64,000 nucleotides of DNA from Atriophallophorus winterbourni (taxonomy: Eukaryota > Platyhelminthes > Trematoda > Plagiorchiida > Microphallidae): the NCBI GenBank assembly GCA_013407085.1, contig JACCGJ010018160.1:42553-106552 (forward strand). The letters are read 5' to 3'. A model generated the notes under the pieces. The model made no database searches and was not told the origin of the DNA. It was given only the letters and a program-made list of their open reading frames with translations. Positions 3,933 to 47,814 of the stretch are shown here, one piece after another. Within the stretch, counting starts at the first letter, position 1. Every line of letters starts with the position of its first letter. Position numbers and translations under genes: made by a program.

Positions 3933-4129
3933 CCGAAATCTGCGACCCGTTATGAACGGATCCTCGGGATTTTGATGGCTGAGCAATTCTCGTAAATTTT
4001 CCACAATCACAAAAGTATCATCGTCGGCTTTCAGAAAGAAATCGTAGTCGTGCAGTTGCGCGGCTGCATGGTGAATAGCGAAAATTGTCTTGGACCAAAG
4101 TTGATCCCGGCCCTCTTCGTTGACCGCCA
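3933..4129 (-). CDS. C1GALT1: C1GALT1 copy 1, DxD exon
   Basis: 197 bp, acceptor ctgaactag, donor GTGAGT. It keeps EGRDQLW, ADDDTF and GRRFR. ITGRRF replaces IMGRRF of copy 2. Confidence 0.94.
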
Positions 4130-7100
4130 CTAGTTCAGAAGACATGGGAGGATGTACCAGAAATAACTCGAGCAAGTCAATTGAAAATTAAAAACAAATA
4201 TACTAGATAAGTTATGCAATTATAATATGCACTGTCATGATCAAAACTTTTGTTTCTAATTAAGAACGATAAAATGGTAGATAATTTATATCGTCTGCTC
4301 TCAACGGTAAGATCAACTTGAAGGAAGGTAATTTGGAAATAGTAGAACCTACCATTAGAAGCGAGTTTCTAAGCAAACGCTAATTTCATTTAGTTGTAAC
4401 AGACATATGAATAGAATACCGTTTACACTAATCGAAAAGACATGACTTCTCGCATATTCAGTAGCAACGGTGCTTCACATTCCGCAAACTAGGTTTACAC
4501 ATTGCTCCTCCTTCAAGTAATCATGTTCAAAGTGGAAACGAATGAAAATTGTGGAACCCCTATAAGTCAAAACATGTACACGCTTATGATAAGCAACTGG
4601 ATAATCAAAAATTCTTAGATACAGCCATTAGCGTATCTGATTGCTATTTTAAAGCACGGAATGACAAGCAACCACTAAGTGAGCGTACGATCTAAGCGGC
4701 ACAAAGTTGAACCGATTCAAAACAACAATTCTTTGGTTTTCGTGGTGTGACAACAAGAATTTAGTAAAAAACATTTGGCAAATAACAACAATTTACGGAA
4801 ATATAAGAGAGGCAAATACTTGATCCCGGTACAACAGTGATGGCACCCCATTTCAAAAGAGAAACCAATCCGAATAAAAATAGCAATTCAGCACAGAAAT
4901 CTATTATATATTCACTTGTTATTATGCGGAATATAGCGGCAGGTGCACTTGCTGGTATTTTTGTGTAAAATACCAGCGACCGGTCGGCTGGGTGCACTCA
5001 TCATCAAGGTCACATGAATTTCACCCGTGATCACACGGTCGATGGTGAATGTGGAGAGAAAAAAACTCTATCGCATGGATGCACGGATTTGGAATCGTGC
5101 AGTACAACGTGCTGTGCGGTTACACCGTGCAAAATTGATTGGTCAGAGGCAGTGAGCTGCATGCTGAAACAGGTTGGAGTCTCACTACTATATCCCGTTG
5201 TTCTTTCTTCCTGATATCTGTCTAGGCTTGGGCAAACTGACAGTAACTTAACCCACGTGCAGTCTCTGACTGTGCGGCACTTTGCCTGGATCTATCTTGT
5301 GCTTTCAGACCATACCATACCATACCTCTATCGCACGGTCCATGTGAATGATAAGAGAAACAATGATATTATCGTCTGATTCCAGTTGAATCGCAAACAA
5401 GCAATATATATATGTAGATTCATAGCGAACAGAGTGGAGTATCTTAGTCTATAACCAAACACAACGCTTAAATTTCTGCTCGTTTCAGGACAGAAAAACA
5501 AATTCATGAAAATTACAAAATGACCGCGGTTCTTTATCCCTGTATTATGCATCGCGCAATAGCATTAAAGTAGACAATGAAAATCTTAAGGTGAGTAGTG
5601 TTGGGCAAATATCGGAATACCGGCAACACTGAAATCTGAGGTATTTACACGGGAAGTTCAAAAGTATGACTGGCAAAGTAAGATTTTGTGTCTACAAGAG
5701 ATAGATTGCTTGAAGTTAAACACTTGAATGAAGTAGCCAAGACAAATCTGTGGACTGTTTTCTACACATAACATGAAAAGAGATTTAATCAATAGGTCGT
5801 AACACATCTCAGACTGTGACCAAGCTCTTTCGTGTGTACAAAACTGAACACTCGAGTTTACTGTGACAAAGGATTGAAGATAAACGTTTCTGCGAACCGG
5901 TATGCAATCTGAGCAAGCTTTCACAACCTAGCTCAGTGAAGCAGATAGATCAGGTTTCCAAAAAAATGAAAAAATGAAATTGTATGGTCCGAGTCGCCCT
6001 TACTACAGCACTCTGTTCAAGGAAATCGCAAATAAGTAATTGATTTAAATGTCAAAACTTCAGTGATGAGTGATGTTCTGGATGAGAAAAAACAAACACC
6101 TTTTATAAAGTTTAAGCACTTAACAAGAGATGAAAACTTGCACCATCTCGTAGTAATTCTAACATACAGATAGGTGATGCACACCTGCGTATTAGCGCGA
6201 AAATTTAAAAAAACAACTGTGGCTATATGTAAATTTCATCGTGTGTGATGGCATTAAGAGTCCCGTTAGAAAGATCAAACTTGAAACGACGCTTATTAAG
6301 TTCATCTCCGGTAATCTGAGATAAAACGCAACAGGTAATGAAACGGGTAAAAAATATTTCTCCCTTCTCTGAAATGACAAATCCTGAGAAAGTTGGGCGT
6401 TCACCAGACTTTTAAGTTTCTGGTGCCTTAAAATTTATAGATCTAAATATCATCATTTGAAAAGTTGTAGAGCATGAACTTGTCATGCGATTGTGGTGTA
6501 ATTCCATGGTTGACATCGAACGAAGGAGGCCATCGACAAAAATAACAAAAAATATGTCAAGAGACCGCATAGGTGGTGAAAACAATTTGTTCCTGATACT
6601 GATAGGTAGAGTCTACCCAAACGGGTGCGTGAAAGCTTGTTTTCGTGCTTCATAAAAAGGTAAAGGGTATAAAACACGTGCGTAGTAAATCTATTAATTT
6701 AGGACAGCAAAACCTAGATCAGCTACACAATACTCGAGCGGATGATAAATGCTTTTCATTTCGTGAGCATGTGCTGCAATTCGAAAATATTGTGGGTGCA
6801 AAAGTACCAAACGCAAAATTGATTGTTAAAACTGGCATACAAAACATGTTCAGGCTAATGCAACAACGGCATTCAAGCTGACTGGTCCTAAATATGGAAT
6901 CAGAACGGTCGTATTAGAAAGGATATAATTTGGGAAACCAAGTTTCGGTCAAACCACACATGCCAAAAAGGGTTGTAATAGCGATCTAAGAAATCTCGAC
7001 ATGGACCCTCCGACGAGAAAATGAACTAGCGCTAGAAAGCTCGAATTTCAGACAGTGTGAAACACATTCAAATTTGCGAATAGATTGTGTCTTATTGTAG

Positions 7101-9929
7101 TGTTTGGGAGTAGGGAGAAGACGGGACTCATTGCGAAGGTCATTTCAGGTGAACGATTGGAAGCCGGCGCACATCTGGCTAATTATCACATATCAGTTCA
7201 TCGGTTCAACGATAACCACGTCACACCCGCGCTGCACGCCAGCATATCGATTCATCCCTGATGTCAACTTGTCCAACGCTAATCCCGTTCACCCACGAAT
7301 CCCACAGGACAAGAGAAGCTGATTGGTCAAAAGCATTTATTACGCACAAGACAAATAACGAAACACGCTTATCACAACGTTCGTCCTCAACATGTCTGTC
7401 CCGGTTATCATTTCAATTTGATTTGTCAGTCACGGAGACACTGGATAATCGATGCTGATCAAACCGGTACCCCCTGTCGCTGTGGATGAAGCAACAGAGT
7501 TCGCCACTACCGATTCGGAATTCGTTGTCAAGAGAAGCGTGTTAAAGTGTGCTTGAGATGTTAATCTAAGGTTTACATCGATCAAAAGAGGCTAACACCC
7601 ATCCTGAACTTGTTCGTACAGTAGTAATAAGCAAGGGATTATAAACTCAAGGCTTTTTAAGGTTTCGTGTACACTAGCACCATTGGGTAGAGCGAATAAT
7701 TTCATCGAAGGAGAAACGCGATTGACAAAATGCCGTTCAACTATAAGTTCAGTAATCCAATAGCGTACGGTTTCAGTACGTTAAATTGATCGGTAGCATT
7801 TCGTTAATGAAACTGGGGATGGTAATTCGTAGTTCATACAACTCGATGTTCAAACTTTGAAGACAATTTAAACTATAACTAACATCACACCACACGTTCG
7901 TACGCCAATAAGAGATCACTCAGATTTTCAAGTTTTCTCATTTTGTCCTTCACATTTTAGTATGTGAATAATATATATCATAATATAGTATATATATATA
8001 TATATCTCTTTATATAATATATATATATATATATATATCTATATATCTATATATATATATATATATGATAAAGAAATAAGACAGGTATAAATGTATACAT
8101 TTGAGCCATTTTTAAATAGGTTTCCTATAACGAACAAAGTGGTTCAAACACAGAATCAAAAAGTCATTACTGGTCAAGATCTCAAGACGCGTATGGATAA
8201 CCAATCTAATGTGTTTCTAATACCTCAAGCACTTACACTTCACGTGTGGGCAACACCCTACATACGGTTGACACAGCTGCAAGTCCTTTGATTGATCTCT
8301 ATCTAATGGAAATATACCTACCGCGAAATAGAGTTGCCGTTCTTGGTGGTCGGTAAATTTGAGAAACTTGCGCACTGTTACGAAACTTGGTTATTGCTGT
8401 TGGATTCTGTCATTCGATGTCGACCATGGATGTACATCACAATCGCATTATTTTTCCATATTCCGCAGCTTTTCGAGTAACTGAAAAGTCCGATTCGGGA
8501 GTAACCATCTCTCCCGCAGCGCTCGTAACGATAGGCAGAACTCGGTCGATCGGCGTCAGTTGCACGCCTTTTGCGTGATCTGCGTTCAGCAGCCAAGAGC
8601 TATCTGCTCTTTTCCAGCTTGATCATCATCATCATCATCATCAACATCATCAGAGACAGTTTTACTGCGAAAGTCAGTCAGTCAGTCAGTCAGTCCTCTC
8701 CGTGCCGGGTGGCACATGAGGTGAAGACAACTTCACGCCAGTGGTTCCGGCCTGTCGCTGCTTCCGTTGCCGTCTGCACCGTGAATCCTTGTGCATGTAG
8801 TTCGCGTTCCAACGTTCTGCGCCAAGTTTCCTGGGACCGTCCCCCTTTTCGTTTACCTTGCGGATGCCAGTGCATGTCTACCTTCGTATGCGAACTGGGA
8901 TACATCCTGCAGACATGACCGTACCACGGATCTGTTGTCATCGTTTCCGTAGCAATGTAGGTTTTACGGGATAGGGTTGCTAGCCCTAAGTCCAAACCTC
9001 CTCCTTTCTCAGACGGGCTTGGGACCGTCCTTGGCGAAAACATGTAACAAATGTTTAACTGCCATACAAACATGACAAAAAGTAAAAGATTAAAAGATTA
9101 AGAAGGGTGGGACTTAAATAGCTACAGATTCTATATCAGAGTAAACACAAACAAACTGGAATGAAATGTCCGAGATTAAACATGCCGCTTTACACAGTGC
9201 CTCCAAAGTAAGCGGTTAAGAGCAAGTTGTTTTCAACTCGTAGGGCCAATGCCAAGAGCTTTCATATCGCTTTCGCGAACGTTTTTGTACCGCAAGTGCG
9301 ATTTGCCCAAATAATCGACTTGCTGATATCAACTAAGCATAAAGTAGAGTGTCTGAAGCACACCCGGGGTTATCGATAAGGTTAAAATCGGCAAAGGTAT
9401 GTAAAGGCGCCTTCTCCACATACCAACTGACGGCAGTGATCGATCCTCCTGACTGCTGATGAACACGTGCCCGTTACATCGAGACGCCCAGGTGTCTCGC
9501 ACAGCCACGGCCTTGGTGCTATGGGAAGATGGATTGGTCAGGATTAAACACATCACCCGGACTTGCTTGGCCAAACTGATGGCGACCGCAGCCTCCGATG
9601 GATCGTGAATCACTGAAAATGTTTTATTTTCGGAAATTTGAGAAAAAATATTGCGGATTCGCGTATAGTTGTTCAATATTTACATCAATACCGTTTAGTA
9701 AATGGCTAACTTAATGCAGGAGGAAAAATGAACAGTTTGAATTCAGTGAACACCGTGATCTAAATCTTTCAAATATATTATTTACAAATGATGGGTCTTC
9801 CGAACAGGCATGAAATTTCAGGATTACATTGATAACCAGCATTCCAAGCATATCTCTTAGGGAAGCAAACATGATCACAATAACGATAAAACAAAAGCAA
9901 CGAGAACATACCAGGATTCAATGAAAATG

Positions 9930-9996
<67 letters not shown>

Positions 9997-12900
9997 TTTC
10001 CCGTGCTAAATAGCGTACTAAAAGTAATAGAACCAAGCAGCAGCGAGAGCGAACGGATCTGGACGCGAAATCTGAAATATATTACTGGTAGCAATACGTT
10101 GGTCAACGATTATGAACCGTCGCTCTCTGCGACGTCTGCTTAAAAAGACGCTTTTTATAATAACATCACAACAATCCTCGAAAACGTGAAACTAAAAACT
10201 GTGGGTGATTTCAATGCTAGAGTTGGTGCAGATTACGACTCTTGGCGAAACTGTCTCGGGAGGTTCGGCGTATGTAAAACCAATGAAAATAGACAACGCC
10301 TTTTACAACTGTGCACACAGTTCACTCTTTGTGTAAGTAACATCATCATCATCAAAGACAACATTACACCGGTAGCACGTACCGAATGATTAACTGTCAC
10401 ACAATCATGAAAAAGTAAAATCCTAAAAAATGGGGAAGGGTGGGACTGAAATTGCAACGGCTACTATAGAAGAGATAGCACAAACAAACTTGGAAGAGGT
10501 GTTTACACCTCGAATGGAACATGCATTCAAACAAGTTTCGTGAACGAGTAGAGCAACATCAGTACGGCAGCTTCCTTGCGGCTCTCACTGTCATGCATCA
10601 TAACAAGCTTTTCTCGTCACTCCGCTTGAAAACATACAAGGTTAAGCAAACACTCCAAGAAGATGCTTAGTGCAAGACCGCCATTGAACACGGTTTCGGG
10701 ACATATCCTGAAACGTAACTAACCACTGCGATATCTGATCGAGGGGACACCAGCCTGGAAGACGCGCTGCGCCTACTTTGTAAAGGTTACTAGTAAGAAT
10801 TTTAACTACCTATGCCATGCGACGGTTTGGCCACCCCGAGATTTACGCCAATCAGGATGTGGCGTCGCAAAATGAATCTGTTTCGGAAGTCGGTGGTTCG
10901 ACATCCGTAAAACGTGACCCAACCAACGTAACCTATGCAGGTAGATCTGCTTCTCTATATCAACATTACTACCAAACAACTTATTTCGGAGAGCATCGGT
11001 GCGTATGCGATTGTAACTGCTAACTCCTAGGATTCAGCGGATACACCGTTTGTCAAATACTTGGAGACGCTGAATGTGTTCTTTGTGTAAGGTCCAGGTT
11101 TCGCACCCATAGAGTAACACAGCCCGAACGGTCGCTTTATAGACTCTACCCTTGAGTAACAGAGACAGTCCTTTCTGACGCCAGAGGTGACCTAGGTTGC
11201 GGAATGCTACGGACGCTTTCGAAATGCGTGCCGAGACCTCGTCATCTAACGATGCAGAATTATTGATACAACTACCGAGATACGTAAAACGATCTACAAT
11301 TTCAAGCGCCTGATTGTCAAGTAATAAAGTGTTGTTCGATAAGTCGATGTCCTGCAGCAGAACACTGTACATAGTGCGCGCAAAACGCAATCCAAATGCG
11401 GGCACAATACTAGATAGCTTGTTCAGTATCGCCTGTGCATCTGTGTACGAGTCGAAGAGCAGAACAATATCATCAGCATAATCCAAGTCGAGAAGCTTGA
11501 CGCCTGGTATTATGTGAACTCCGAAAGCTGGGGCACCTTCGTTGCATAATTCCATAATTGCATCAATTACATAATTGAACAAAAACGGAGAAATCGGGCA
11601 TCCTTGTAGGACGCCACTTGTGGTGTGGAATTTGGGTGAGAGTTCGTTGTAAACCCTAACGCATCCGGATGTATGAGCATAAAGTGCGCGAAGTATGTTC
11701 ACATACTTTTGTGGAACGCCTTTGCACAGCAAGGTGTTAAACATCAGCTTGATCTTATTCTTGTAAGGCGCACTAATATAGGAAGTGCACTCATCACCAA
11801 TTCATATCAAAGCGCAGACCGCGACACTGACCATTCGTTGGTTTGTGCAAAACTGAAGCTTCCCCGGTCGAGAGTTCACCTCGCCAGATTGTCTGCTAAG
11901 CCAATGATAGACGTCACTCGACATGTGAACCTAATCTAGCTGCGTGATTTGCAAAATCCTTCATAGCCGAGTTCAACAAGACAACCCCACTCAAGTCGGC
12001 TTCAGAAAACTGGGAATCGCTAAAAAGCTGCATTTGCCGATTCGCACATTCCACTTATGGTCAGAAGCAAGCTCGAACGAGCGACTGATTCAAAGCATAA
12101 TTTTATGATATGACATCTGTGATGGACGAGAAAAGGTCAGCATTCTTGAAGTTCAAAGGTATGCCAACAGATGAAAACTTACGACTTCGAAGAGCAGATA
12201 GAAATAAGGTCAAACAGACTGCAAAACGATGTGTAAATGACTTTTTGAGTGATGCTAGCCTCAGTGTTTAAAAGGCTGCGGATACAGGAATTTTAACGGT
12301 ATGTATGATGGGATAAGAGAGCCATTGGTCCAAACAAACATAACACGGCTTCCATTCAAAATTTCGAAACATCGAATGCCACTATACGCTGTTTTTATTG
12401 ATTTAACGGAGGCTTCGACCACTTCAACAGGGAGGGTCTTTTTAAAATGCTTGATCTGATAGGCTGCCATTCAAGACTGCTCACGCTAGTTATTTCGTTC
12501 CACTAAGGTATGAAGGGCACAGTCCATTTTAACGGTTTCAGTTCCGAAGCCTTTGAAATTCGCCGAAGTTTCAAACAATGGTGTTTTCTTGCTCTCACGC
12601 TGTTCGGCATTTTCTTTGTCCTGCTTCTGAAGCACACTTTTAGGACTAGAACAGAAGGCATTTACCTACGCACACGAAGTGATGTCAAGCTTTTCAACCT
12701 GAACCGGTTGAAAGCACGAACCGGGGCACGGGATGTGTTGATCCGTAACCTGCTGTTTGCTTAGGATGCAGCCACTATTGCTCACTCCCAAGAAAACCTC
12801 CATTTGCTAATATACTGTTTTTAGTCGGCATGCAAATAATTTGGGATAAAAATCAGCATGAGCAAGACCAAAGTCATTGGTCAAGGGATTGTATCTCCCA

Positions 12901-14236
12901 CAATCATCACTGTTGGAAACTGTCAGCTTGAACCAGTACATCGATTCACGTGTCTTGGTTCAACCATTGCGGATAACCTCTCGCTAGATTGATAAGCGGA
13001 TTGGCAGAGCAGCCGTTATTTTGTCGCGTTTGAACTCTCGTGTTTGGTGTAACGGCAAGTTGACTGTAAATACGAAGAGGATGGTGTAAAGCACGTGCGT
13101 CCTAAATGCTTAACGGCAGTGAAACATGGACCTCCCACGCGAGACACGAACGGAAGTTGAATGCTTTCCATCTACGATACATCCCTCGTATCGTGAACAT
13201 ATCGTGGATGGAAAAAGTGACTAATGCTGAAGTGCTTTTCAATGCTGGTCTAAAGAACATGTTCACAATAGTACGACAGTGCCATGTCTACAGAATGGAA
13301 AATGGACGTATTTAGAAAGATTTAATCCATTGTGAGTTGAAATTAGGAAGTTAACCATTGGGCAGATCGCACTTGAGGTAAGAAGACTTTTGCAAAAGAG
13401 ATATGAAAGCTTTCGGCATTGAACCCGTGAGTTGGGAACAACTTGGTTTTGACCGCTCACATTGGAGGCAGTGTGTAAGGCATCGTCTGCAAGCTGGGGA
13501 GGATCAGATACAGCTTTTGGCTGCTAAACGCAGATCACGCTGCCGGTGTGCAACTGACGCCGATCGACCGAGTTCTGCCTATCGTTTCAAGAGTTGTGGG
13601 AGAGATTGTTTCTCCCGAATCGGATTGTTTAGTCATTCAAAAAGCTGTATAACATGAAATTCATGCGATTTTGATGTACATCCATAGTAGACGTCGAACG
13701 AAGGAGGCCAACACAAAAACATAGAGGGAAAGATACGCATTCCCGATCGACCAGTAAATTGTTCAAATAATTGATAAGAAGTGCAGCCTTATAAAACTGA
13801 ATAAGGAGTTGCTCAAAATTACTCAAAGCCATTTTAGTATGTCTGTAGGCTATGGCGTATTAAGCGCGTTATTTTACATACATGTATTCTGCTTAATTTG
13901 AAATTCACAAGCAATTTTACAGTAAATTCTTCTCGGTAATCGATTAAATATGTTTACAAATAATGCTGTCGCATTAAAGCTATGAAACCTTGATACAATC
14001 GATAAGAGTTCAATCATTGGTTAAGAACATAAAACGCGGGACTTACTATTTGATCCGGTCGGTAGAATGTCATACTTTCTTATATAAGTCAAGAAGGGAA
14101 ATGTGGTTCTTACGCGTGCACCGTACACTTCATAGCAAGTCAATCCAGCGAGGAATCCGGATACAAACACAATGAATAGGACGAAGAAATATTTTCGTTT
14201 GGAACGATTGTGTAGCTGAGATAATCCATTTGTTTG
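3933..14236 (-). CDS. C1GALT1: C1GALT1-like galactosyltransferase, copy 1 (partial, three exons in window)
   Basis: Exons 14236-14047, 9612-9424 and 4129-3933 on the minus strand correspond one to one with the first three readable exons of copy 2, with the same splice phases and intact reading frames. They cover the signal anchor, the RDTWASRC region and the ADDDTF motif. The GYVLS, RFHPF and CCSD exons would fall left of position 1. I therefore cannot say whether this copy is complete or a truncated paralogue. The initiator exon should lie between 14237 and about 33000 and was not recognised. In this copy the intron between the last two exons carries more insertions than in copy 2. Confidence 0.88.
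5010..5335 (+). repeat. Unclassified interspersed-repeat-like block with (CATAC)n tail
   Basis: A GC-richer block, almost unchanged between the copies, that ends in tandem CATAC pentamers (5308-5325), a layout typical of SINE or LINE 3' ends. A box-B-like GGTTGGAGTCT (5173-5183) follows a possible box-A-like word about 32 bp earlier, closer than in a real tRNA. A 66-codon ORF (5014-5214) is identical in both copies but unrecognised. Confidence 0.4.
6481..7085 (+). mobile_element. Decayed RTE-like LINE fragments
   Basis: 6481-6545 resembles the 3'-UTR signature of the RTE copies in this window (catgcgattgtg, then gaaggaggcc). From about 6640 a frame reads [22 protein letters not shown] and then, with stops, a stretch resembling the RTE C-terminal tail ([16 protein letters not shown] at 35.2 kb). 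It is strongly degraded. The same region in copy 2 is 45080-45680. Confidence 0.6.
7086..7700. other. Conserved but unidentified stretch
   Basis: Two overlapping short ORFs (7104-7322 and 7261-7458) are kept in copy 2 (45700-45918 and 45857-46072) with several amino-acid changes. No domain, splice pattern or repeat ends were recognised. Confidence 0.3.
7970..8066. repeat. (TA)n microsatellite
   Basis: A long AT dinucleotide tract with short interruptions. It lies in a stretch of about 400 bp (7690-8140) that has no counterpart in copy 2. Confidence 0.95.
8140..8290 (+). repeat. Fragment of the hammerhead-carrying repeat (ribozyme part missing)
   Basis: Words such as cgtatggataaccaa, aatgtgtttct and acttacacttcacg follow the order seen in the 242-bp hammerhead monomer at 51.1-51.25 kb. 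No CTGATGA/GAAA core is present. The counterpart in copy 2 is 46318-46480. Confidence 0.5.
8395..8618 (-). mobile_element. RTE-like LINE 3' end (first part)
   Basis: Minus strand: the C-terminal tail [19 protein letters not shown], the Cys-containing ERCGRDG and FSYSKSC, then the 3'-UTR word near 8400-8440. It continues at 9187-9330 beyond a nested insertion. The counterpart in copy 2 is 46580-46805. Confidence 0.8.
8619..9186 (-). mobile_element. 3' tail of a second RTE-like LINE, nested in the first
   Basis: On the minus strand this piece ends in (GAT)n (8621-8650) and splits the RTE copy at 8395-8618/9187-9330. The same tail sequence recurs at 10336-10550. It is itself interrupted by the mini-element at 8673-9033. 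Copy 2 (46806-46974) has the tail without the mini-element. Confidence 0.7.
8673..9033 (-). mobile_element. RTE-derived non-autonomous mini-element
   Basis: 361 bp flanked by GCGAAA target duplications (8667-8672 and 9034-9039); copy 2 keeps the empty site at about 46830-46845. Read on the minus strand it joins a 5' leader (CCAAGGACGGTCC to ATTGCTACGGAAACGATG) directly to the end of an RT protein (GKRKGGRSQETWRRTLEREL to WREVVF), and it ends in tandem ACTG tetramers. The same leader-tail junction occurs at 56164-56518, so the deletion arose before spread. It encodes no functional protein and presumably used a full-length RTE's machinery. Confidence 0.85.
9187..9330 (-). mobile_element. RTE-like LINE 3' end (second part)
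   Basis: Minus-strand RTE coding remnant that would directly precede 8395-8618 once the nested pieces are removed; it includes the segment equivalent to WRHCVKRRL. Copy 2: 46975-47130. Confidence 0.75.
9424..9612 (-). CDS. C1GALT1: C1GALT1 copy 1, N-lobe exon
   Basis: 189 bp, acceptor ttttcag, donor GTATGT; the protein is identical to copy 2 as far as I can read. It sits about 90 bp from a minus-strand RTE fragment at 9187-9330. Confidence 0.92.
9934..9996. repeat. (TA)n(GA)n microsatellite
   Basis: A TA tract followed by a GA tract. Copy 2 has a longer version at 47719-47813 with two interruptions. Confidence 0.95.
10186..10335 (+). pseudogene. RTE-like LINE, endonuclease fragment (left part of an interrupted copy)
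   Basis: Encodes the AP-endonuclease stretch VGDFNARVGADYDSW, then NENRQRLLQLC and LCVSN. GDFN is a conserved endonuclease motif. The same element resumes near 11735 ([11 protein letters not shown]), so the segment 10336-11734 is nested inside it. The left part is deleted in copy 2. Confidence 0.85.
10336..11734 (-). mobile_element. RTE-like LINE (YADD), nested in a plus-strand RTE copy
   Basis: Minus strand from about 11744: [19 protein letters not shown], then [13 protein letters not shown], catalytic [20 protein letters not shown] and LYGCETWTL. Further down comes the C-terminal [11 protein letters not shown] and a WR-rich tail near 10650-10790, ending in (GAT)n at 10336-10352. It is 5'-truncated and broken by a stop at 11034. 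Possible short target repeats AACATCA flank it. Confidence 0.88.
11034..11744 (-). pseudogene. RTE-like reverse transcriptase, RT palm to thumb
   Basis: 236 residues open, with YADD intact. It lacks the endonuclease and the N-terminal RT. The stop after DKRCIR is absent in copy 2, where the frame runs on to 47993. Confidence 0.9.
11735..13715 (+). mobile_element. RTE-like LINE, right part of the interrupted copy
   Basis: Plus strand, many stops and shifts: endonuclease end [11 protein letters not shown], then [11 protein letters not shown] (catalytic DH); RT piece [16 protein letters not shown] (motif B region) and [15 protein letters not shown] (12510-12764). Then come [42 protein letters not shown] (13106-13315) and the tail [11 protein letters not shown] (to about 13650), followed by the 3'-UTR signature ending near 13715. 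It is a pseudogene throughout. Confidence 0.85.
14047..14236 (-). CDS. C1GALT1: C1GALT1 copy 1, signal-anchor exon
   Basis: 190 bp with the same acceptor and GTAAGT donor as copy 2. The basic patch and hydrophobic anchor are identical. Visible replacements are SQLHN for AQKHN before the anchor and ARVRTT for ASIRTT after it. Confidence 0.84.
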
Positions 14237-16313
14237 CTGTGCAATAAAAAGGACCTTATGAAGTGGTTATTTATTACTATACATAGAATCGTGACGTGCA
14301 TATGTGTAATAGTGGGCACTTAAATATACGCGTCGAGCTGTCGAAACAATAAATAGTTCCTGCTGGAACATAGGAGTCGAAAATAGCAGTTTTCAGCACG
14401 TAAGTTAGCCTATTAGAAGCCTCAGTTACAAGTGACAAGGTGTGACCATTAAACAAATGTTGGACACTATTGGAATCAGTTGTAAATGTGTTACTAATAT
14501 GAAAGTTTGAAATGAACCTAAGAGAAAGAATGAAAATCTCCGTTTGAAAAAATTATAAGTCTCATCTGTAAACCAAATTAGTATTTCTTAGAACGACGAA
14601 CATTGATAGCAAATCACGAAAATCATATTTACGAGATACGTTCGACCTGAAATCCGCCTTTTGATAACGGTATCGGACGCAGTGTCGAGAGCGATGATGA
14701 AACGCGTATGAATATGGTTACGTGATAAAGAGAGCAAGATATTCTGATTATTATTTCAAATTCGGCTGTTTTAGAAAAAGCTGAATACTTTGCAAAGTTC
14801 TCTCTGGTAAGGGGTGTAGAGTTAATGTTATATCGCAAAAGTGGCATGTCCTTCACCAATAAGATCGGTCAAGACAAGCTTCAGACCATTTCCTAGAATG
14901 GAGATCAGGTTGCTCTATTTTAATCTTGTACTAATTTTATAAAATGTGAATTATTAGATTTAAAAGGATGATTCTAGTGCGTCACCGCGGATATGTATGT
15001 TATCAACGTCTTTATGAATGGGAATTCCGATTACGCTGATTAGATCGAAAAAAGTAGGAAATTAAAAGCTAGAAAACATGTAGAAATGTAAGCAGAGACA
15101 CTGAAATTAGATTATATTTTTTACTTAACTTACATTCGATCAACTTATGTGCAACTTTCCCCGTCATGAACCACAACAAGCAGACAGCAATTATCACATG
15201 CCTGGAGCTTTTATAATCCCAGTTTCCTGAATGTCAGGCTTAACATCTGTACAATAACATTGCACCATGTTGATCTAAAAATTCTGTCTTTGGAGCTGCA
15301 GAGAAAAATCTGTTCTACCACCAATAACCTAAATTACAGAACGCTACAAGTTTTCCAAAAGTTTGTGCCGAATCCGTTATATAAACACGCGCTAAGTAGC
15401 CCAAGTAGCTCAATCAGTCAACGGTCGAAATTATATCATTATTGAGAACTCATGCACTTTCGATTGAATCCATATATTTTGATCAAACTTTGCACATGAA
15501 AAGTAAAAAGCGCAGTGAAAAATGATGAAATACCACACAGCGTTTATAGATTATCTAAATCATTTTGTGAAACAATAAAGACATAAAACGCCATCAACAT
15601 AAACCGAATCGATCCGTTTCTACTCACAGTACATCTTAATGTCATGTGTTGATATTTCAGCATTACATGTTTTTATTATAGTATCAATTAAATATTTCTA
15701 CAGAAATAAATTCGAAAACATGTACAAACTATACTTGGCAGATTTGGTTGATAGGCTAAAGACAATGAAAAATAGGAAGTATTTTTGGAAGAAAAATAGG
15801 TTTGCTGGAAGCAAAAGTTCAATTTATAGCAAACATACGAGAACCAACGAAGAAAATTAAACAGACCATCATCAAGAAATATACATTAATATTTATTAAA
15901 TTTGTTTTGAATAGCGTTGGGTCAAAAGCATTCCTGTAGTAGAAGAACAAGGCTCCGATGTCTGAATGATCATCTATCAAGCTATAGCCTATCTATTGGA
16001 AGTGAAACTGTAAGCAAACTAATGGTGAAGATTGTCAGAAACATACGTTGTGCACAATTCCGAGCAAAAAACACGGTGATACTTTGGAGCAATGAAAAAT
16101 GCTATAAACCGAAAACATTTCTTTTTGACCGATAAAATCTCAACTGTTTCTCAATCATTTTCAATGTTTCCGACATAGAGACGAGAAATACCGTTTCCAA
16201 CAGTCGAGTGATATAATGTGTAACTATCTTAGTAACCCCACGATTCATCATGTTTGGTCTGTGCAATCAGCATACAAATGGATTACCAGAACTTTGAAAA
16301 TATGTATATTGAG
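14237..16313. other. No gene recognised
   Basis: AT-rich sequence upstream of the signal-anchor exon of gene copy 1, with several short ORFs of no recognisable type. It should contain or adjoin the first exon or promoter of the gene, but no convincing ATG exon was found. The matching region in copy 2 is 51956-54030. Confidence 0.5.
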
Positions 16314-16460
16314 TTCAACAAGGAGCGCTTGTATGCCACTGTTGGATGAGGCTGGTACGACCAACCTGTTCAAAGCATGTGTCCAAACACATGGTAAATG
16401 GTGTTAAACCCATATCCATGGAACAAAATATTCATTTGCATGCTTTTCCGTCACACACAC

Positions 16461-16510
16461 ACCCCACGACCGGTTTCGTGCTGCTTGCACTCATCAGGTA
16501 TGAACAATAA
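16461..16510 (-). ncRNA. Hammerhead ribozyme, intact core
   Basis: Read on the minus strand: CTGATGA (16491-16497), stem II GTGC/GCAC perfectly paired around AAGCA (16478-16490), GAAA (16474-16477), palindromic ACCGGT for stem III, and cleavage triplet GTC just before 16467. The following GTGGGG can pair with CATAC upstream of the core, giving stem I with one mismatch. This is a minimal type I layout with a very short stem III, a form thought to work best as a dimer. Confidence 0.85.
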
Positions 16511-16666
16511 GATCAGGATCTGCATGCGCTTGAAACAATGGAGGAATGATAAACAAGGAGCGCTTGTATGCCATTGTTGAATGAGGCTGGTACGACCAAC
16601 CATACAAGCGCTCCTTGTTTACCATTGCTCCACTGTTTCAAGCACATGCAGATCCTGATCTTGCTG

Positions 16667-16712
16667 TCCCTACCTGATGCGTGCAAACAGCAAGAAACCA
16701 GTCGTGGGGTGT
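16667..16712 (+). ncRNA. Hammerhead ribozyme, damaged core
   Basis: CCCTAC then CTGATGC (last A of CTGANGA changed to C), GTGC AAACA GCAA, GAAA, CCAGTC, GTGGGG. Stem I (CCCTAC/GTGGGG) pairs completely, but the core change, the weak stem II base and the loss of ACCGGT symmetry suggest it is inactive. Confidence 0.75.
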
Positions 16713-16893
16713 GTGTAACGGAAAAGCATGCAAATGAATATTTTGTTCCATGGATATGGGTTTAACCCCATTTAACATGTGTTTTGACACATGCTTTGAA
16801 CAGGTTGGTCGTACCAGCCTTATCCAACAGTGGCATACAAGCGCTCCTTGTTCTTCCACTGTTTCAAGCTCATGCAGATCCTGATCTTACTGT

Positions 16894-16937
16894 CCCTACC
16901 TGATGAGTACAAACAGCACGAAACCGGTCGTGAGGTG
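16894..16937 (+). ncRNA. Hammerhead ribozyme, core intact
   Basis: CCCTAC, CTGATGA, GTAC AAACA GCAC (one A-C mismatch in stem II), GAAA, ACCGGT palindrome, GTC cleavage after 16929, then GTGAGG pairing with CCCTAC. All invariant core bases are present. Confidence 0.82.
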
Positions 16938-16980
16938 TGAATGACGGAAAAGCATGCAAATGAATATTATGTATATGGAG

Positions 16981-19115
16981 TTGTTTAGCATGCATATAGG
17001 TTTTTACGTCAGAGTCCAATTTCATCTGATCTAGCAATCATCTCGGCAATTTTGACTTAATAGGAAGGCACAAAGATTTATGCCATTCGAAATCACCCAG
17101 TTTCTATCAACATCGCAAAATACTCACATACGGTGTACTAAGCAGGTACCTATTCCAGCGTATCTTTATTTTTACTGAAATAATCCAGATGTTCTCCAGT
17201 GTTGATCATGAAGACGCTATTTGATTTTATGACTATTGTTTCAAATAAACAATAAGTAATTACCAAACTTTAAGGTTGCCCGAATGTATTACACAAAATT
17301 ACGAGGACCATTATTAGAGAAAACAGAGAAATTGATCAAGGAAACCAGTAGTTATAGTTTCATCATTACCTCGATAATTATGCCTGGTTCAGAAATCAAA
17401 TTTACAGTAGCGACATAATTGCCAATGCATACTTTCCTTAAATTATTGGAAATGATTTATCACACATTACACTCAAGTAACTGTGCATACAGAGAACTTG
17501 AAACGTTTCAAATTATTTAATGGAGGTTGAAAAAGCCAAACATACTTCGGTTAATCCATAAACAGTGAATTTGCAAAGTTGAGACAGGATTGAGAAGGGT
17601 GAAACAATAGATGCAAAGATCATAAGAAATAACAGCGAATTTTGATTGTACTTCGTAAGAAGATGAGCAATTTTGTATTTTTTACCAGAAAATTAAACCC
17701 AAAACAAAATGAATATCCAGAACCATCACGAAATTTATTGGGTTATACATGAAAATACGGAGTATTGTTACATCGGAATGATGGTTATTGTGTGAGCACT
17801 ATATACGCAGTACTACATTATCAATATAAATACACCGAAAACTAATTTTTTACATAATATGCAATTTCGGAATGCTTCAACAGTAAGATTTCTCCCTCAT
17901 AATTAGACATCAAACCTACAATAGGAGAAGGCAGTCCCTAAAGAATGCTTCAGGAAGAGTGATTCCTCAATGATTCAATAATAAGTCGAATATAAGAAAA
18001 TCACATTGAAGGCAGCACAATACTTAAATCGAAAGAAAACAATCAACTTACCATGTTACGCAGTGGAAATTGATTAATGAAAATGAATAGGCGGTCTGTA
18101 ACATAGAAAACGCATGTTACTTCTTGGTAATAATTAAAAAATTAAAAAGAAATAAAACGTTTGAAACAAAACGGGTTATTTTGGATTAAACTCCGGTTTA
18201 GAGATAGAAATAAGCAGTCTAAAGTGCACTTCATGCTAACCGAATCCGCATGATTGAATAATGTTACGGGAATTTCAGGACTTTTTAAGTGTTCGATTTA
18301 TTTTAATCCGTGCATCAATATGATGACTAGAAAATTGAGTAAAAATGCAAAAAATAAAATGGTCAATGTTGAGGACACCAAATTTACAAATATACAGTAA
18401 TCAATATGGAAGGTTGCATTTGAAAATTCAAGCCTATCTGCTTGATCAATCGCAAGGAAATATGAACTTCGATCTAACATTACCTAACGAAAATATACTT
18501 AAAATTTGGGATCATGGGCTTTTTTGTTTGTATCGAAACTTTTTATTTATTGTTTTAGAAATCAATATTACATACCATACATTACAAAGTAAATTCATTC
18601 ACTATGTATCCGGAAACGAAGCTACAACAGCGGAATAACCAATACCGCACTAAAACATTCGTCATTAATCCGATAATATTTTCAGAGGATGCTCGGGGAT
18701 CAGATACTTCTCTGATTTGTCCAATTTGAACTTGACTTAAATACGAGATAGGAAAACATAATTTAGATTAATTAGACACAAATCACATAATTAAGAGATA
18801 ACTGACAGTATAATTCCATAAAAAATACATATCAAGCGATACAACTTAGTGTATTTTAGTAGCAAGTTGAAAATACATTTCCGGGTTGACAACGTTTTCT
18901 AAAACATTGAGAAAACAAATTAAATAATTGTGTGTTTACATGTATAGTGACACGTTATAAAATATAATCTAATCATGATGGATTACCTTTGAATCGAAAT
19001 TAATGCACTGTTATTCGTTTCGCATTCAAAATCGCATACACAAAAGATATGTAACTAAGATTTATACTTATGCTGAAATTGAAGGTCAACATTAAATTGT
19101 TTTTACCGCAGAAAG
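16981..19115. other. No gene recognised
   Basis: AT-rich, duplicated at about 54045-59283 with more differences than elsewhere, including an extra stretch of about 180 bp near 17830-18010. ORFs are short and not conserved between copies. Confidence 0.5.
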
Positions 19116-23013: not shown

Positions 23014-23593
23014 TGTAAGATGATACTTTATGAATTTCTTCCTTTTTCCTTCATCTTTACCTTATATTTTGAAACAATTTCCAGAATCTAAATTTTGTTG
23101 ATTATCTTTTCCGGTATTTTTTATTTATGCTGTATTTGATGGAAAACATTTTTTTTGTTATTAAAAACTTGCTATTTGAAATCTTTTCTTTACACGCCTT
23201 TGGTCAATTATTTGTTTCAATTGTTCGTTTCGGCCATTGTCGGTCATTGTTGTTGAATTTGGTTGCCATTTTGGGCACTTGTAATTGGCTTGCATTTTGA
23301 CACCACTTTTGGGTGTCTTGTCTTTGATAGACATTTTAGACGGCAATTTTGGTAACCCCTTTCATTCTGTTTATATCTCGAGCCGTCATTGAACTTGTTT
23401 GCATTTGATATAATTGATTCTGGAGTATTTTGTCTCCTGTTTGCTGTAAGTTCCTTTACAGTTGAGGTTTGTATAATTATTGCTGTTGTAATTGTTGCTA
23501 ATTACAGTACCTTATAACATCCGAATTGTGGTTTTGAATTTGTCGAACTAAGAAACGGGTGGAATACGCGTTACTCACGTCACAGACGTTACA
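23014..23593 (+). repeat. BEL/Pao LTR, left
   Basis: 580 bp, begins TGTAAGATG and ends GACGTTACA. Confidence 0.88.
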
Positions 23594-23788
23594 GTACTCA
23601 ACATGGAATTCGATTTGTACCGTATTTGTCTCAATTGGAGAAAATACACTACTGAACTTGGAATTTGATTTTTCTCGAACTTGGCGAGAAGTGCAGTTGA
23701 AGATTCGCGAATCGATTCAGTTTACAATTTCGGTGACGTCCCTTTTTTCTTTTGTTTCCTTTTATCCCTTTGAATCCTTTTGTATAAA

Positions 23789-24766
23789 ATGCCTAAAGTT
23801 GCTTCCAAGGTAGCATTGACCGAGTGTGATAAGCCAGATGGTTTAGAGTTTAGCGATACACCTTCTCTATGCGCGTTGGATTTAGAGCGAGAATTATCCG
23901 TAGCTAGATCCACGATAGAGCGCTTGTAAAGGGAAAAGCGATAACCAGAGGGGAACAATTTGATAGCTTGCAAGAGCCGCAGGCCAGAACGGAGCGGGAC
24001 GACAACAACCGAATTGCAGCCCTCAATGAATATCAGCCTCGGACTACCCAAGGTTGAATTATCATACTTTGATGGTAATCCAATTGACTATTGGAAATTT
24101 ATGAGGCAATTTGAATGCTACATTGAATCGCGGCTTACGGACCCGGCACTAAGATGATTATATCTGATGTTTTATGGCCGTGATAAGGCTCGTAAAGCTA
24201 TTGATGCCTGCGTCATGCTGCAACCCACTGAGGGTTATATGAGAGCAAAAACCATAGTGCGAGATTTGTTCGGTTTACCGCATGTAATTGCTCGGTCTAC
24301 ACTGGATGAATTGTTCGGAGAAGCCAGAACGCTTTCACAAAAGGTAGATGGTTTATCTGAATTTGCAATAAAGATGGAAAATTGCCAAATTATGCTGACA
24401 CAAATGAAGTGCAAGGCCGACTTGAATTCGGTCAACACTTTGGAAGGTGTTGTAAGGTGCTTACCTGTAGCCTCACAGCAGCCGTGGGCCGATGCTACCG
24501 ACGCGATTACTGCCGATGGTTTGGATGTAAACTTTGAACGAATTTCCGAGTTTGTTTCTCGAAAGGCAAGAGTTGCTAGAAGTCGATTTGGTCAGCATTG
24601 TCGCTCTGACACGACGCAGAATTCAGCAGCAAATGCTTCAAATGTTTACGATCGAAGGAAATCTAATGCTACCCTTGTTGGCAGATCCATAAACAGCTTG
24701 GAATGCTGTAATTGCAAGGGACCGCACAAATTACATCAATGCATCGAATTTAAGAATCTCGACGTA
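23789..24766 (+). pseudogene. BEL/Pao gag, first internal copy
   Basis: Starts ATG at 23789 (MPKVASKVALTECDKPDG). It reads LPKVELSYFDGNPIDYW, the typical Pao gag core, then AKTIVRDLFG and a zinc knuckle with CCNCKGPHKLHQC. Stops break it (after IERL, before PEGNN, and TGA at 24155-24157), and the N-terminal part shifts frame near 23940. Confidence 0.85.
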
Positions 24767-24769
24767 TAG

Positions 24770-25867
24770 AGTCGTTGAGATCTGGCTAAACGGGTATCGG
24801 CTTGTTTTCTATGCCTTCGGAAGTTCCATAGGTCTGCCAATTGTATGAGTGGATCTCGATGCACTGCAGAAAATTGTGGCGGTCGGCACCACACGCTCCT
24901 GCATAACGATCAACTGGCAATAAATCCGCCGGCAAACATCAATTTCAGTCACGCAGCATTAAGTGCCAGGGTATGTTTAGGATCCGTGCCTGTCAAGATC
25001 GAGACGTCGTCCGGACTTATTGACGCAGTAGCCCTCCTGGATGGTGGTTCAGATACGACGTTAATTCTTAGTGAATTCGTTGAAAATTACAATATACTAA
25101 AGTGCCCTGCTCAAATGTCGCTTACAACTTTGGGCCATCAACGGGTAATGAACTGCTCTCGTCTGAACTCAAATATTCTTTCTGCAGATGGTGGAGAAGT
25201 CATTCAGGTTTCGAATGCTTACACCGTAGAAACCTTGCCGCATGTGTTACAATCGTCAACCGGTGCTCTGCGTGAACGTTATGATTATTTAAAGGGTGTT
25301 GAATTATTTGACGTTCATGATCAGCCGGTGACAGTGCTGATTGGTTGCGACTTTCCTGAAGCACACTAGGCGTTGGAACAGCGGCTCGGTGGAAGAAGCC
25401 GTCCGTTTGCAACGAAGACATTGCTGAGTTGGATATTGCAGGGGCCTGCGTGTGAAACGTCTGAGGATATTGACCTTTGTGTTGTCGGTTGTGATCAGGA
25501 AGCCGAGTTACCTGACACTGAATTAGCTCAGTCGGAATTTGTGATTGAATTTCCCGACACTAATTCGGATCAGATGGAGACCAAGCCTGGCTCACCTGAC
25601 ACCAAATCAGCCAAAATGAATAGTAGGCCTGGTTCACATGACAGTGAATCAGCCGAAGTAGGGACGACAGATGGTTGGCGTGACAATTCATATGATTGGC
25701 GCAAGACGTTCGGTTGTGTACCCGATGAGCCATTTGTGTTTCGGACACCGGATACACTTATTTTAATTTGCAGATTAGAGTTGTTTAGATGTCGCAAGAT
25801 GTCGCTATTTGAGGATGAAATACACAAAACTCGTTCGGCCGGGAATGCACGCATAAGTTTCTTGTAA
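24770..25867 (+). pseudogene. BEL/Pao second zinc-finger and protease region, first internal copy
   Basis: Reads ACFLCLRKFHRSANC, then CTAENCGGRHHTLLH (Cys/His fingers), and an aspartic-protease-like ALLDGGSDTTLI (DGG rather than the usual DTG/DSG) followed by LIGCDFPEAH. After a stop at 25367-25369 comes LLSWILQGPACE and an acidic SPDTK/SHDSE repeat stretch. Reverse transcriptase does not follow; the region ends near 25867 and the LTR begins at 26041. Confidence 0.82.
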
Positions 25868-26040
25868 GGAACGGTGGCAGAACCGGAGGACGTGGTGGGT
25901 CTGAGTCTAGCAAACTATTTCCCTAGCCACATGTGTCTAATGATGGCAATGCGACGTGGCGTGTTTGACTCGCCACTAAATAAAGTCATTTGATATTCTG
26001 GGTTTATACGTTGAGGTCCTAGGAAGAATTTGGCCGGAGG

Positions 26041-26620
26041 TGTGAGATGCAACTTTATGAAATTCTTCCTTTTTCCTTCATCTTTACCTTATATTTTGAA
26101 ACAATTTCCAGAATCTAAATTTTGTTGATTATCTTTTCCGGTATTTTATATTTATGCTGTATTTGATGGAAAACATTTTTTTTGTTATTAAAAACTTGCT
26201 ATTTGAAATCTTTTCTTTACACGCCTTTGGTCAATTATTTGTTTCAATTGTTCGTTTCGGCCATTGTCGGTCATTGTTGTTGAATTTGGTTGCCATTTTG
26301 GGCACTTGTAATTGGCTTGCATTTTGACACCACTTTTGGGTGTCTTGTCTTTGATAGACATTTTAGACGGCAATTTTGGTAACCCATTTCATTCTGTTTA
26401 TATCTCGAGTCGTCATTGAAATTGTTTGCATTTGATATAATTGATTCTGGAGTATTTTGTCTCCTGTTTGCTGTAAGTTCCTTTAGAGTTGAGGTTTGTA
26501 TAATTATTGCTGTTGTAATTGTTGCTAATTACAGTACCGTATAACATCCGAATTGTGGTTTTGAATTTGTCGAACTAAGAAACGGGTGGAATACGCGTTA
26601 CTCACGTCACAGACGTTACA
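26041..26620 (+). repeat. BEL/Pao LTR, middle
   Basis: 580 bp, begins TGTGAGATG and ends GACGTTACA. It follows a purine-rich stretch (ggaagaatttggccggagg) that can serve as the polypurine tract. Confidence 0.88.
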
Positions 26621-26815
26621 GTACTCAACATGGAATTCGATTTGTACCGTATTTGTCTTAATTGGAGAAAATACACTACTGAACTTGGAATTTGATTTTT
26701 CTCGAACTTGGCGAGAAGTGCAGTTGAAGATTCGCGAATCGATTCAGTTTACAATTTCGGTGACGTCCCTTTTTTCTTTTGTTTCCTTTTATCCCTTTGA
26801 ATCCTTTTGTATAAA

Positions 26816-27793
26816 ATGCCTAAAGTTGCTTCCAAGGTAGCATTGACCGAGTGTGATAAGCCAGATGGTTTAGAGTTTAGCAATACACCTTTTCTATGCG
26901 CGTTGGATTTAGAGCGAGAATTATCTGTAGCTAGATCCACGATAGAGCGCTTGGAAAGGGAAAAGAGATAACCAGAGGGGAACAATTTGATAGCTTGCAA
27001 GAGCCGCAGGCCAGAACGGAGCGGGACGACAACAACCGAATTGCAGCCCTCAATGAATATCAGCCTCGGACTACCCAAGGTTGAATTATCATACTTTGAT
27101 GGTAATCCAATTGACTATTGGAAATTTATGAGGCAATTTGAATGCTACATTGAATCGCGGCTTACGGACCCGGCACTAAGATGATTATATCTGATGTTTT
27201 ATGGCCGTGATAAGGCTCGTAAAGCTATTGATGCCTGCGTCATGCTGCAACCCACTGAGGGTTATATGAGAGCAAAAACCATAGTGCGAGATTTGTTCGG
27301 TTTACCGCATGTAATTGCTCGGTCTACACTGGATGAAATGTTCGGAGAAGCCAGAACGCTTTCACAAAAGGTAGATGGTTTATCTGAATTTGCAATAAAG
27401 ATGGAAAATTGCCAAATTATGCTGACACAAATGAAGTGCAAGGCCGACTTGAATTCGGTCAACACTTTGGAAGGTGTTGTAAGGTGCTTACCTGTAGCCT
27501 CACAGCAGCCGTGGGCCGATGCTTCCGACGCGATTACTGCCGATGGTTTGGATGTAAACTTTGAACGAATTTCCGAGTTTGTTTCTCGAAAGGCAAGAGT
27601 TGCTAGAAGTCGATTTGGTCAGCATTGTCGCTCTGACACGACGCAGAATTCAGCAGCATGCTTCAAATGTTTGCGATCGAAGGAAATCAATGCTTCCCTT
27701 GTTGGCAGATCCATAAACAGCTTGGAATGCTGTAATTGCAAGGGACCGCACAAATTACATCAATGCATCGAATTTAAGAATCTCGACGTATAG
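26816..27793 (+). pseudogene. BEL/Pao gag, second internal copy
   Basis: Same as the first copy, including the shared TGA at 27182-27184. The first stop of copy one (after IERL) is a sense codon here (ERLEREKR). The knuckle region carries ACFKCLRSKEI instead of the three-base-longer version. Confidence 0.85.
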
Positions 27794-27796
27794 AGT

Positions 27797-28890
27797 CGTT
27801 GGGATCTGGCTAAACGGGTATCGGCTTGTTTTCTATGCCTTCGGAAGTTCCATAGGTCTGCCAATTGTATGAGTGGATCTCGATGCACTGCAGAAAATTG
27901 TGGCGGTCGGCACCACACGCTCCTGCATAACGATCAACTGGCAATAAATCCGCCGGCAAACATCAATTTCAGTCACGCAGCATTAAGTGCCAGGGTATGT
28001 TTAGGATCCGTGCCTGTCAAGATCGAGACGTCGTCCGGACTTATTGACGCAGTAGCCCTCCTGGATGGTGGTTCAGATACGACGTTAATTCTTAGTGAAT
28101 TCGTTGAAAATTACAATATACTAAAGTGCCCTGCTCAAATGTCGCTTACAACTTTGGGCCATCAACGGGTAATGAACTGCTCTCGTCTGAACTCAAATAT
28201 TCTTTCTGCAGATGGTGGAGAAGTCATTCAGGTTTCAAATGCTTACACCGTAGAAACCTTGCCGCATGTGTTACAATCGTCAACCGGTGCTCTGCGTGAA
28301 CGTTATGATTATTTAAAGGGTGTTGAATTATTTGACGTTCATGATCAGCCGGTGACAGTGCTGATTGGTTGCGACTTTCCTGAAGCACACTAGGCGTTGG
28401 AACAGCGGCTCGGTGGAAGAAGCCGTCCGTTTGCAACGAAGACATTGCTGAGTTGGATATTGCAGGGGCCTGCGTGTGAAACGTCTGAGGATATTGACCT
28501 TTGTGTTGTCGGTTGTGATCAGGAAGCCGAGTTACCTGACACTGAATTAGCTCAGTCGGAATTTGTGATTGAATTTCCCGACACTAATTCGGATCAGATG
28601 GAGACCAAGCCTGGCTCACCTGACACCAAATCAGCCAAAATGAATAGTAGGCCTGGTTCACATGACAGTGAATCAGACGAAGTAGGGACGACAGATGGTT
28701 GGCGTGACAATTCATATGATTGGCGCAAGACGTTCGGTTGTGTACCCGATGAGCCATTTGTGTTTCGGACACCGGATACACTTATTTCAATTTGAAGATT
28801 AGAGTTGTTTAGATGTCGCAAGATGTCGCTATTTGAGGATGAATTACACAAAACTCGTTCGGCCGGGAATGCACGCATAAGTTTCTTGTA
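27797..28890 (+). pseudogene. BEL/Pao zinc-finger and protease region, second internal copy
   Basis: 27869-28393 is identical in protein sequence to 24845-25369 as far as I can read. The acidic tail frame stops earlier (28795) because of a TGA. The same pol deletion is present. Confidence 0.82.
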
Positions 28891-29064
28891 AGGAACGGTG
28901 GCAGAACCGGAGGACGTGGTGGGTCTGAGTCTAGCAAACTATTTCCCTAGCCACATGTGTCTAATGATGGCAATGCGACGTGGCGTGTTTGACTCGCCAC
29001 TAAATAAAGTCATTTGATATTCTGGGTTTATACGTTGAGGTCCTAGGAAGAATTTGGCCGGAGG

Positions 29065-29642
29065 TGTGAGATGCAACTTTATGAAATTCTTCCTTTTTCC
29101 TTCATCTTTACCTTATATTTTGAAACAATTTCCAGAATCTAAATTTTGTTGATTATCTTTTCCGGTATTTTATATTTTTTTGTATTTGATGGAAAACATT
29201 TTTTTGTTATTAAAAACTTGCTACTGCAAATCTTTTCTTTGCACGCCTTTGGTCAATTATTTGTTTCAGTTGTTCATTTCGGCCATTGTCGGTCATTGTT
29301 GTTGAATTTGGTTGCCATTTTGGGCACTTGTAATTGGCTTGCATTTTGACACCACTTTTGGGTGTCTTGTCTTTGATAGACATTTTAGACGGCAATTTTG
29401 GTAACCCCTTTCATTCTATTTATATCTCAGGTCGTCATTGAACTTGTTTGCATTTGATATAATTGATTCTGGAGTATTTGGTCTCCTGTTTGCTGTAAGT
29501 TCCTTTACAGTTGAGGTTTGTATAATTATTGCTGTTGTAATTGTTGCTAATTACAGTACCGTATAACATCCGAATTGTGGTTTTGAATTTGTCGAACTAA
29601 AAAACGGGTGGTAAACTCGCTACTCACGTCACAGACGTTACA
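29065..29642 (+). repeat. BEL/Pao LTR, right
   Basis: 578 bp with the same ends. It shows more differences than the left and middle LTRs show from each other, for example around 29170-29280. Confidence 0.88.

Positions 29643-47715: not shown

Positions 47716-47814
<99 letters not shown>

Follow-up and report, generated by a model that had tools for sequence, protein, structure and literature searches.

The closest described systems are known here from passages of the papers cited. Metazoan non-LTR retrozymes are described as non-coding tandem units of a few hundred base pairs with a type I hammerhead, a GC content below 50% and target duplications longer than 4 bp (Cervera and de la Pena 2020, PMC7229834). 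The same source names autonomous Penelope-like elements as a strong candidate, without proof, for mobilising animal retrozymes. According to passages of a review, the majority of hammerheads in invertebrate retrozymes are able to fold a stable helix III, and the minimal Penelope-type hammerheads are without most of helix III and possibly cleave as dimers (PMC7761336). Rotifer Penelope copies that bear an endonuclease have, for example, 218-bp pseudo-LTRs adjoined by an inverted pseudo-LTR, which is most commonly head-to-head; palindromes occur at the inverted junction, target duplications measure 8-10 bp or are lacking, and the authors favour self-priming on an antisense template for this layout (PMC3846280). 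In Anolis, a purified Penelope protein cuts AT-rich target DNA on both strands and extends each of them, using internal RNA sites downstream of the hammerhead; in vitro the hammerhead cut was dispensable for insertion, unprocessed RNA was the main substrate and the start sites, as calculated from that paper, lie about 85-92 nt past the cut and are the same on both strands (PMC11167929). In flukes, the schistosome SMalpha and W-elements are non-coding repeats with minimal type I hammerheads, extremely short in stem III in the W-elements (PMC8490949).

We analysed a window of 64,000 nt of Atriophallophorus winterbourni DNA, meaning the whole stretch. Self-comparison of the window revealed a segmental duplication over much of its length, with blocks within 1-18473 matching 40394-55372. 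A 653-bp insert was found at 16316-16968 (Table 1). The initial annotation had placed an uninserted counterpart near 54030, and this was borne out by an empty site at 54038-54051 in which ATGTATATGGAGTT occurs once with continuous adjoining flanks (identity 105/113 on the left and 106/119 on the right). Target repeats, previously given as 12 bp, are present but measure 14 bp with one mismatch. Insertion of 16316-16968 was precise and took place in AT-rich target DNA, of which 14 bp were duplicated; the paralogue does not have the insert. Taken together with the hammerhead motifs described below, we consider the 653-bp feature to be very probably a hammerhead retroelement insertion.

Table 1. 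Features of the insert, its empty site and related sequences (window coordinates; unit position 1 is the first base following the predicted hammerhead cut)
Feature	Position	Strand	Remarks
Left target-site duplication ATGTATATTGAGTT	16302-16315	none	14 bp
Inverted arm, ~1.25 units	16316-16600	minus	descending unit positions, ~149 to 1 and on from 226 to ~100
Hammerhead A, intact	16461-16510	minus	core 16473-16497; stem II GTGC/GCAC; palindromic stem III ACCGGT; predicted cut 16468/16467
Spacer of 30 nt, head-to-head junction	16571-16600	none	ends at hairpin-forming sequence (unit 99-117)
Direct arm	16601-16968	plus	unit 131-226, full unit 1-226, unit 1-39
Hammerhead B, degenerate	16664-16715	plus	CTGATGC, CCAGTC; first stem II position unpaired
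Complete 226-bp monomer	16704-16929	plus	between successive predicted cuts
Hammerhead C	16890-16941	plus	intact core 16900-16924; one A x C stem II mismatch; predicted cut 16929/16930
Right target-site duplication ATGTATATGGAGTT	16969-16982	none	13/14 identical to left copy
Uninserted (empty) target site	54038-54051	none	single copy of ATGTATATGGAGTT; segmental paralogue, flanks continuous
Related direct dimer, period 242 bp	~50960-51369	minus	in paralogue; two hammerhead relics with CCGGTA, one minus a core A
Partial relative	32522-32616	plus	core CTGATGA...CGAAACCGGTT
Old relative with hammerhead relic	2915-3118	plus	CTGATAA
Copy of 2915-3118 relative	41956-42159	plus	by segmental duplication
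Partial relative without recognisable hammerhead	8066-8243	minus	242-bp unit ~2-173, weaker past ~104
Counterpart of 8066-8243 relative	46325-46426	minus	by segmental duplication; unit ~2-104
Partial relative	38840-38927	minus	226-bp unit ~2-94

The insert consists of a minus-strand arm of about 285 bp joined head-to-head to a plus-strand arm of 368 bp, with the 5' ends of the arms meeting around the spacer. A head-to-tail 226-bp monomer had been recognised before; that period is present in the plus arm only, and the other arm is inverted. The arms are complementary at 96% of positions between 16317-16463 and 16706-16852 and at 90% between 16455-16570 and 16601-16716, and the inverted and direct parts overlap by 19 nt. 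Differences between the arms number 5/147 on one side of the ribozyme and 12/103 on the ribozyme side (Fisher p 0.019), and because the arms differ in this way the mirror image is not a fold-back artefact of sequencing reads. When the alignment is inspected by eye, one of the three unit copies stands alone at most differing sites, as expected from three copies that would have been alike at the time of insertion, and the uneven arm divergence leaves room for a mixed template. The inter-arm divergence brackets that of the paralogue flanks (61/990 left, 91/841 right), which would fit insertion of the element after the segmental duplication.

Where the inverted arm has its inner end, unit positions 99-117 can form a hairpin with an 8-bp stem and a 3-nt loop; if overlapping hairpins are included, the window has about 1.8 of this size for every 226 bases. 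No corresponding hairpin was found at that place in the related 242-bp unit, and the direct arm begins at unit 131, outside the hairpin-forming stretch. The unit has a GC content of 0.45, and the stop-to-stop frames that overlap the insert are 92 aa or shorter. A simple tandem repeat was considered and rejected, as Tandem Repeats Finder lists nothing at the locus, probably owing to the presence of fewer than two direct copies.

Three hammerheads had been reported at the locus, and they proved unequal: A holds an intact core and stem II, while B is degenerate and C carries a stem II mismatch. Motif A has CTGATGA and GAAA cores, a 4-bp stem II and a stem I with 5/6 positions paired, two of them by wobble. 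Stem I is likewise paired at 5/6 positions in C and is best in B (6/6, one wobble). A strict descriptor (core, stem II of at least three Watson-Crick pairs, AC..GU stem III and NUH) gave one match in the real window, motif A, which alone among the three motifs has every one of these features, as compared to two matches in 200 dinucleotide shuffles (about 0.01 per shuffled window). A looser family pattern gave seven matches at three or fewer mismatches against 0.06 expected, three of them with zero mismatches; this pattern was derived from family members and the comparison is partly circular. Rfam returned zero matches in the whole window at gathering thresholds. Below threshold, Hammerhead_1 scored 22.0 bits at C and 16.4 bits at B (gathering 34), and A was matched only by Hammerhead_HH9 at 15.7 bits (gathering 52, E 1.6).

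Stem III, GAAACCGGTC, is a six-base palindrome without a loop. As the ACCGGU palindrome leaves no loop for an intramolecular stem III, this stem should need two ribozymes, and the minimal type I hammerhead of the ~226-nt unit would work, if at all, as a dimer. Folding as dimers, a check put forward in the initial annotation, agreed with this in part. The two-strand energy minimum of A kept stem II and a 6-bp intermolecular stem III, but stem I was shifted, and the drawn hammerhead dimer of A reached -14.5 kcal/mol against -28.1 kcal/mol for the minimum. The corresponding values for C were -5.7 and -19.1 kcal/mol, and the minima of C-C and B-C were without hammerhead stems. Folding the 226-bp unit as a circle gave -58.6 kcal/mol, which was not significant against 100 dinucleotide shuffles (z -1.5; related unit z +0.4), and circular-RNA fold stability was dropped as evidence. 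For the plus strand of the locus, folding gave a long RNA hairpin of -449 kcal/mol (z -36 relative to 20 shuffles), in which most of both arms, motifs A and B included, pair together. A minus-strand transcript should fold likewise, given the inverted repeat. We judge the present copy likelier to be a relic, or to give rise to double-stranded RNA, than to be active as an element. Below-threshold Rfam matches resembling mir-556 and mir-BART16 sit on the long hairpin and were not taken as microRNAs.

Judged by sequence similarity, the locus is one member of a dispersed family within the window. The 242-bp-period dimer is missing from the other paralogue, around 13.65-13.77 kb, and about 110 bp of flank is repeated on both sides of it. 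We do not claim a target duplication for this dimer, as the ~110-bp repeat coincides with the end of a paralogous block (10781-13769 / 47967-50952) that is 97% identical, against 89% and 92% in the adjoining blocks; this pattern suggests a later gene conversion, exchange or rearrangement that ended beside the dimer. Measured from the predicted cut, the 3' end is 39 nt downstream in the 653-bp insert and 44 nt downstream in the 242-bp dimer if GUA is the cleavage triplet of the dimer, a common 3' end that rests on two insertions (about 5% by chance, a rough estimate). The 5' end of the dimer aligns inside the stretch matching unit 99-117. The relative at 2915-3118 was dropped as an ambiguous third case of the common 3' end: it aligns to the 242-bp unit as far as the dimer's end position, and the sequence beyond that point has a weak likeness to the 226-bp unit (39/1000 shuffles score as well). 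The 8066-8243 relative extends past the position where the dimer ends. Searches of viral, bacterial and archaeal contig collections found no relatives. The 3' end of the dimer runs into a splice-donor-like GTAAGT at 50956-50961 (minus strand), probably by chance.

The block 10781-13769 / 47967-50952 also holds a reverse-transcriptase fragment, read as RTE-like. A reverse-transcriptase fragment at 47996-48865 (minus strand) had 707 protein matches; among the best 120 of these, named fluke matches reached at most 57% identity and came from Schistosoma, Heterobilharzia, Trichobilharzia, Opisthorchis, Dicrocoelium, Paragonimus and Fasciola. Flukes made up the organism names read among these 120 except for two bacterial labels, which points to a digenean fluke host with no close representative among the matches. 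Two fluke-like reverse transcriptases among the same best 120 of 707 (P0010, P0022) carry a Streptococcus dysgalactiae label, and are probably contamination of bacterial assemblies.

The insert resembles the metazoan retrozymes, as the passages cited describe them, in its type I hammerhead (intact in motif A), its non-coding tandem units (226 and 242 bp here), its GC content and its 14-bp target duplication (PMC7229834). It differs from them in that the published copies are direct tandems, which is how they are described and not a strict criterion, whereas 16316-16600 is inverted here; the dimer at 50960-51369 is direct. The word 'inverted' is absent from the main text of that paper, and we found no inverted retrozyme in passages of the open literature that included PMC11722881, PMC4918200, PMC7761336, PMC3846280, PMC12910113 and PMC11167929, subscription papers lying mostly outside this set. 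The loop-less palindromic stem III also differs from the stable helix III open to most hammerheads of invertebrate retrozymes (PMC7761336). With Penelope-like elements the insert shares repeats of about 220 bp that carry minimal hammerheads with little or no stem III in a tandem and head-to-head inverted arrangement, a short target duplication with an empty site in AT-rich DNA (PMC3846280, PMC11167929), a 3' end tens of nucleotides past the hammerhead and possibly a hairpin at the inverted junction. Unlike these elements, as far as the cited passages describe them, the insert is without a reverse transcriptase/GIY-YIG reading frame, and its target duplication is 14 bp as compared to 8-10 bp in rotifers (PMC3846280). 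Its 3' end about 40 nt past the cut differs from the Anolis start sites at about 85-92 nt, and its arms end at unit 39 and ~149 whereas the Anolis sites are the same on both strands (PMC11167929). The schistosome repeats are alike by description in their fluke host, minimal type I hammerheads, extremely short stem III, non-coding nature and mixture of intact and mutated copies, and W25.2 has a flanking duplication at one copy (PMC8490949). They differ in that they are reported to hold tRNA sequence (PMC4918200), while no tRNA gene was found in the window using ARAGORN (bacterial code). The insertion belongs to a known kind of element, and its architecture is an informative variant.

The initial annotation had proposed a non-coding hammerhead retroelement inserted as a multimer, and support for that proposal comes from the target duplications, the uninserted site of the paralogue, the 226-bp period and the relatives elsewhere in the window. 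As the explanation of the whole we think it rather probable that the locus is a decayed non-coding, non-autonomous hammerhead retroelement of the metazoan-retrozyme or Penelope pseudo-LTR kind, moved by a Penelope-like enzyme acting in trans; that such an enzyme made this insertion is, taken separately, slightly favoured. The RNA reverse transcribed at a staggered cut in AT-rich DNA would have exceeded one unit in length, as an uncleaved multimer or as a 226-nt circle copied for more than one turn. The inverted arm would have arisen by extension of both target strands, or of one strand followed by fold-back or second priming, with the enzyme most likely supplied by a Penelope-like element. The unit may act as a stand-alone pseudo-LTR with its hammerhead near the 3' end and the hairpin-forming sequence near the 5' end. 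Because three predicted ribozyme junctions stand uncut in the insert (16467/16468, 16703/16704 and 16929/16930), we infer that cleaved linear monomers did not serve as the template; a circle and an uncleaved multimer would fit equally. By analogy, the unprocessed-RNA substrate described in passages on Anolis Penelope would favour the multimer over the circle (PMC11167929).

A Penelope-type enzyme is favoured by the inverted layout, the hairpin at the inner end, the 5' end of the dimer and the 3' ends about 40 nt past the cut, of which the hairpin, the dimer 5' end and the common 3' end are each weak alone. Against it, the outer arm ends at unit 39 and ~149 do not coincide. A motif scan of the window detected neither a Penelope reverse transcriptase nor a GIY-YIG gene, and Pfam detected none in the 30 frames searched out of 149 window frames of at least 75 aa.

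The main rival, which we hold to be possible though rather unlikely, is a retrozyme-like RNA inserted by LINE machinery of RTE or CR1 type via twin priming. In twin priming an internal position of the RNA is used for priming by the second target strand, and the LINE copy has its 5' part inverted. The order of flank, inverted 5' part and direct 3' part with a 19-nt overlap is that of a twin-priming product, and the unequal unit positions of the outer ends would be in keeping with a second priming event at an arbitrary place on the RNA. Pfam RVT_1 was detected in 5/10 frames of one scan, read as LINE-type, two of the frames being paralogues. A target duplication of 14 bp falls within the range of LINEs; passages on Nematostella hammerhead repeats report 15-bp target duplications, likened by their authors to those of LINEs (PMC4918200). 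However, neither a poly(A) nor a simple-repeat tail was found at the 3' end of the insert at 16968, and blastn within the window found no tail common to the insert and any window LINE, its matches outside the insert all falling in the hammerhead relatives of Table 1 except for a 19-nt match at 45253-45271 (E 0.43). RTE or CR1 elements had been suggested as the mobiliser at first; the window does hold reverse transcriptases that look LINE-type, but the inverted half of the insert, which had been overlooked and is the most informative feature, shifts the likelihood towards a Penelope-like element.

That the locus is the relic of an autonomous Penelope-like element, its pseudo-LTRs left after loss of the reading frame, we regard as improbable. 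Pseudo-LTRs of similar size with tandem minimal hammerheads, often inverted, are described in passages of PMC7761336 and PMC3846280. The divergent dimer at 50960-51369, alike in unit layout with its 242-bp unit, is also without a coding insert, and the motif scan of the window found no Penelope coding remnant, a scan that would miss strongly decayed ones. DNA transposons too can combine target duplications with long inverted repeats, two hammerheads out of three are imperfect here and strict-descriptor matches do occur at about 0.01 per shuffled window, but a satellite or MITE-like palindrome made by DNA rearrangement, with chance hammerhead similarity, is highly improbable given three zero-mismatch matches to the family-derived pattern against 0.06 expected per window at three or fewer mismatches, and outer ends (unit ~149 and 39) that are not mutual inverted copies as in a terminal-inverted-repeat transposon.

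Returning to a hammerhead retroelement moved by a Penelope-like enzyme in trans, its exact ends, target duplication, empty site and Penelope-like inverted layout lead to countable predictions on the mobiliser, concerning the head-to-head fraction, the end positions relative to the ribozyme and a matching Penelope pseudo-LTR in the genome. A more specific version, which we offer tentatively, is that the element is a stand-alone Penelope pseudo-LTR without an open reading frame whose ~226-nt circular hammerhead RNA would be copied both ways by a borrowed Penelope-like enzyme, giving a mirror-image multimer. If this is true, the locus would be sequence evidence for the proposed, unproven link between retrozymes and Penelope, and its transcript would form an RNA duplex of about 250 bp that could feed small-RNA silencing of the family.

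Other repeats were also observed in the window. A tandem duplication with a 3-kb offset (23014-26620 / 26041-29642) is 98.6% identical, and open frames within 23014-29642 look like LTR-retrotransposon gag/protease, with no Pfam match in the four frames tested. Type-P1 twister-like matches were detected at 56158-56212 on the plus strand (41.4 bits, E 5e-6) and at 8993-9044 on the minus strand (22.1 bits, E 1.8), both under the Rfam gathering score of 67.2 and both at the edge of a repeat common to 56168-56518 and 8686-9036. As truncated twisters are described at the 5' end of RTE retrotransposons in passages of a review (PMC7761336), ribozymes of two classes may be carried by mobile repeats of this window.
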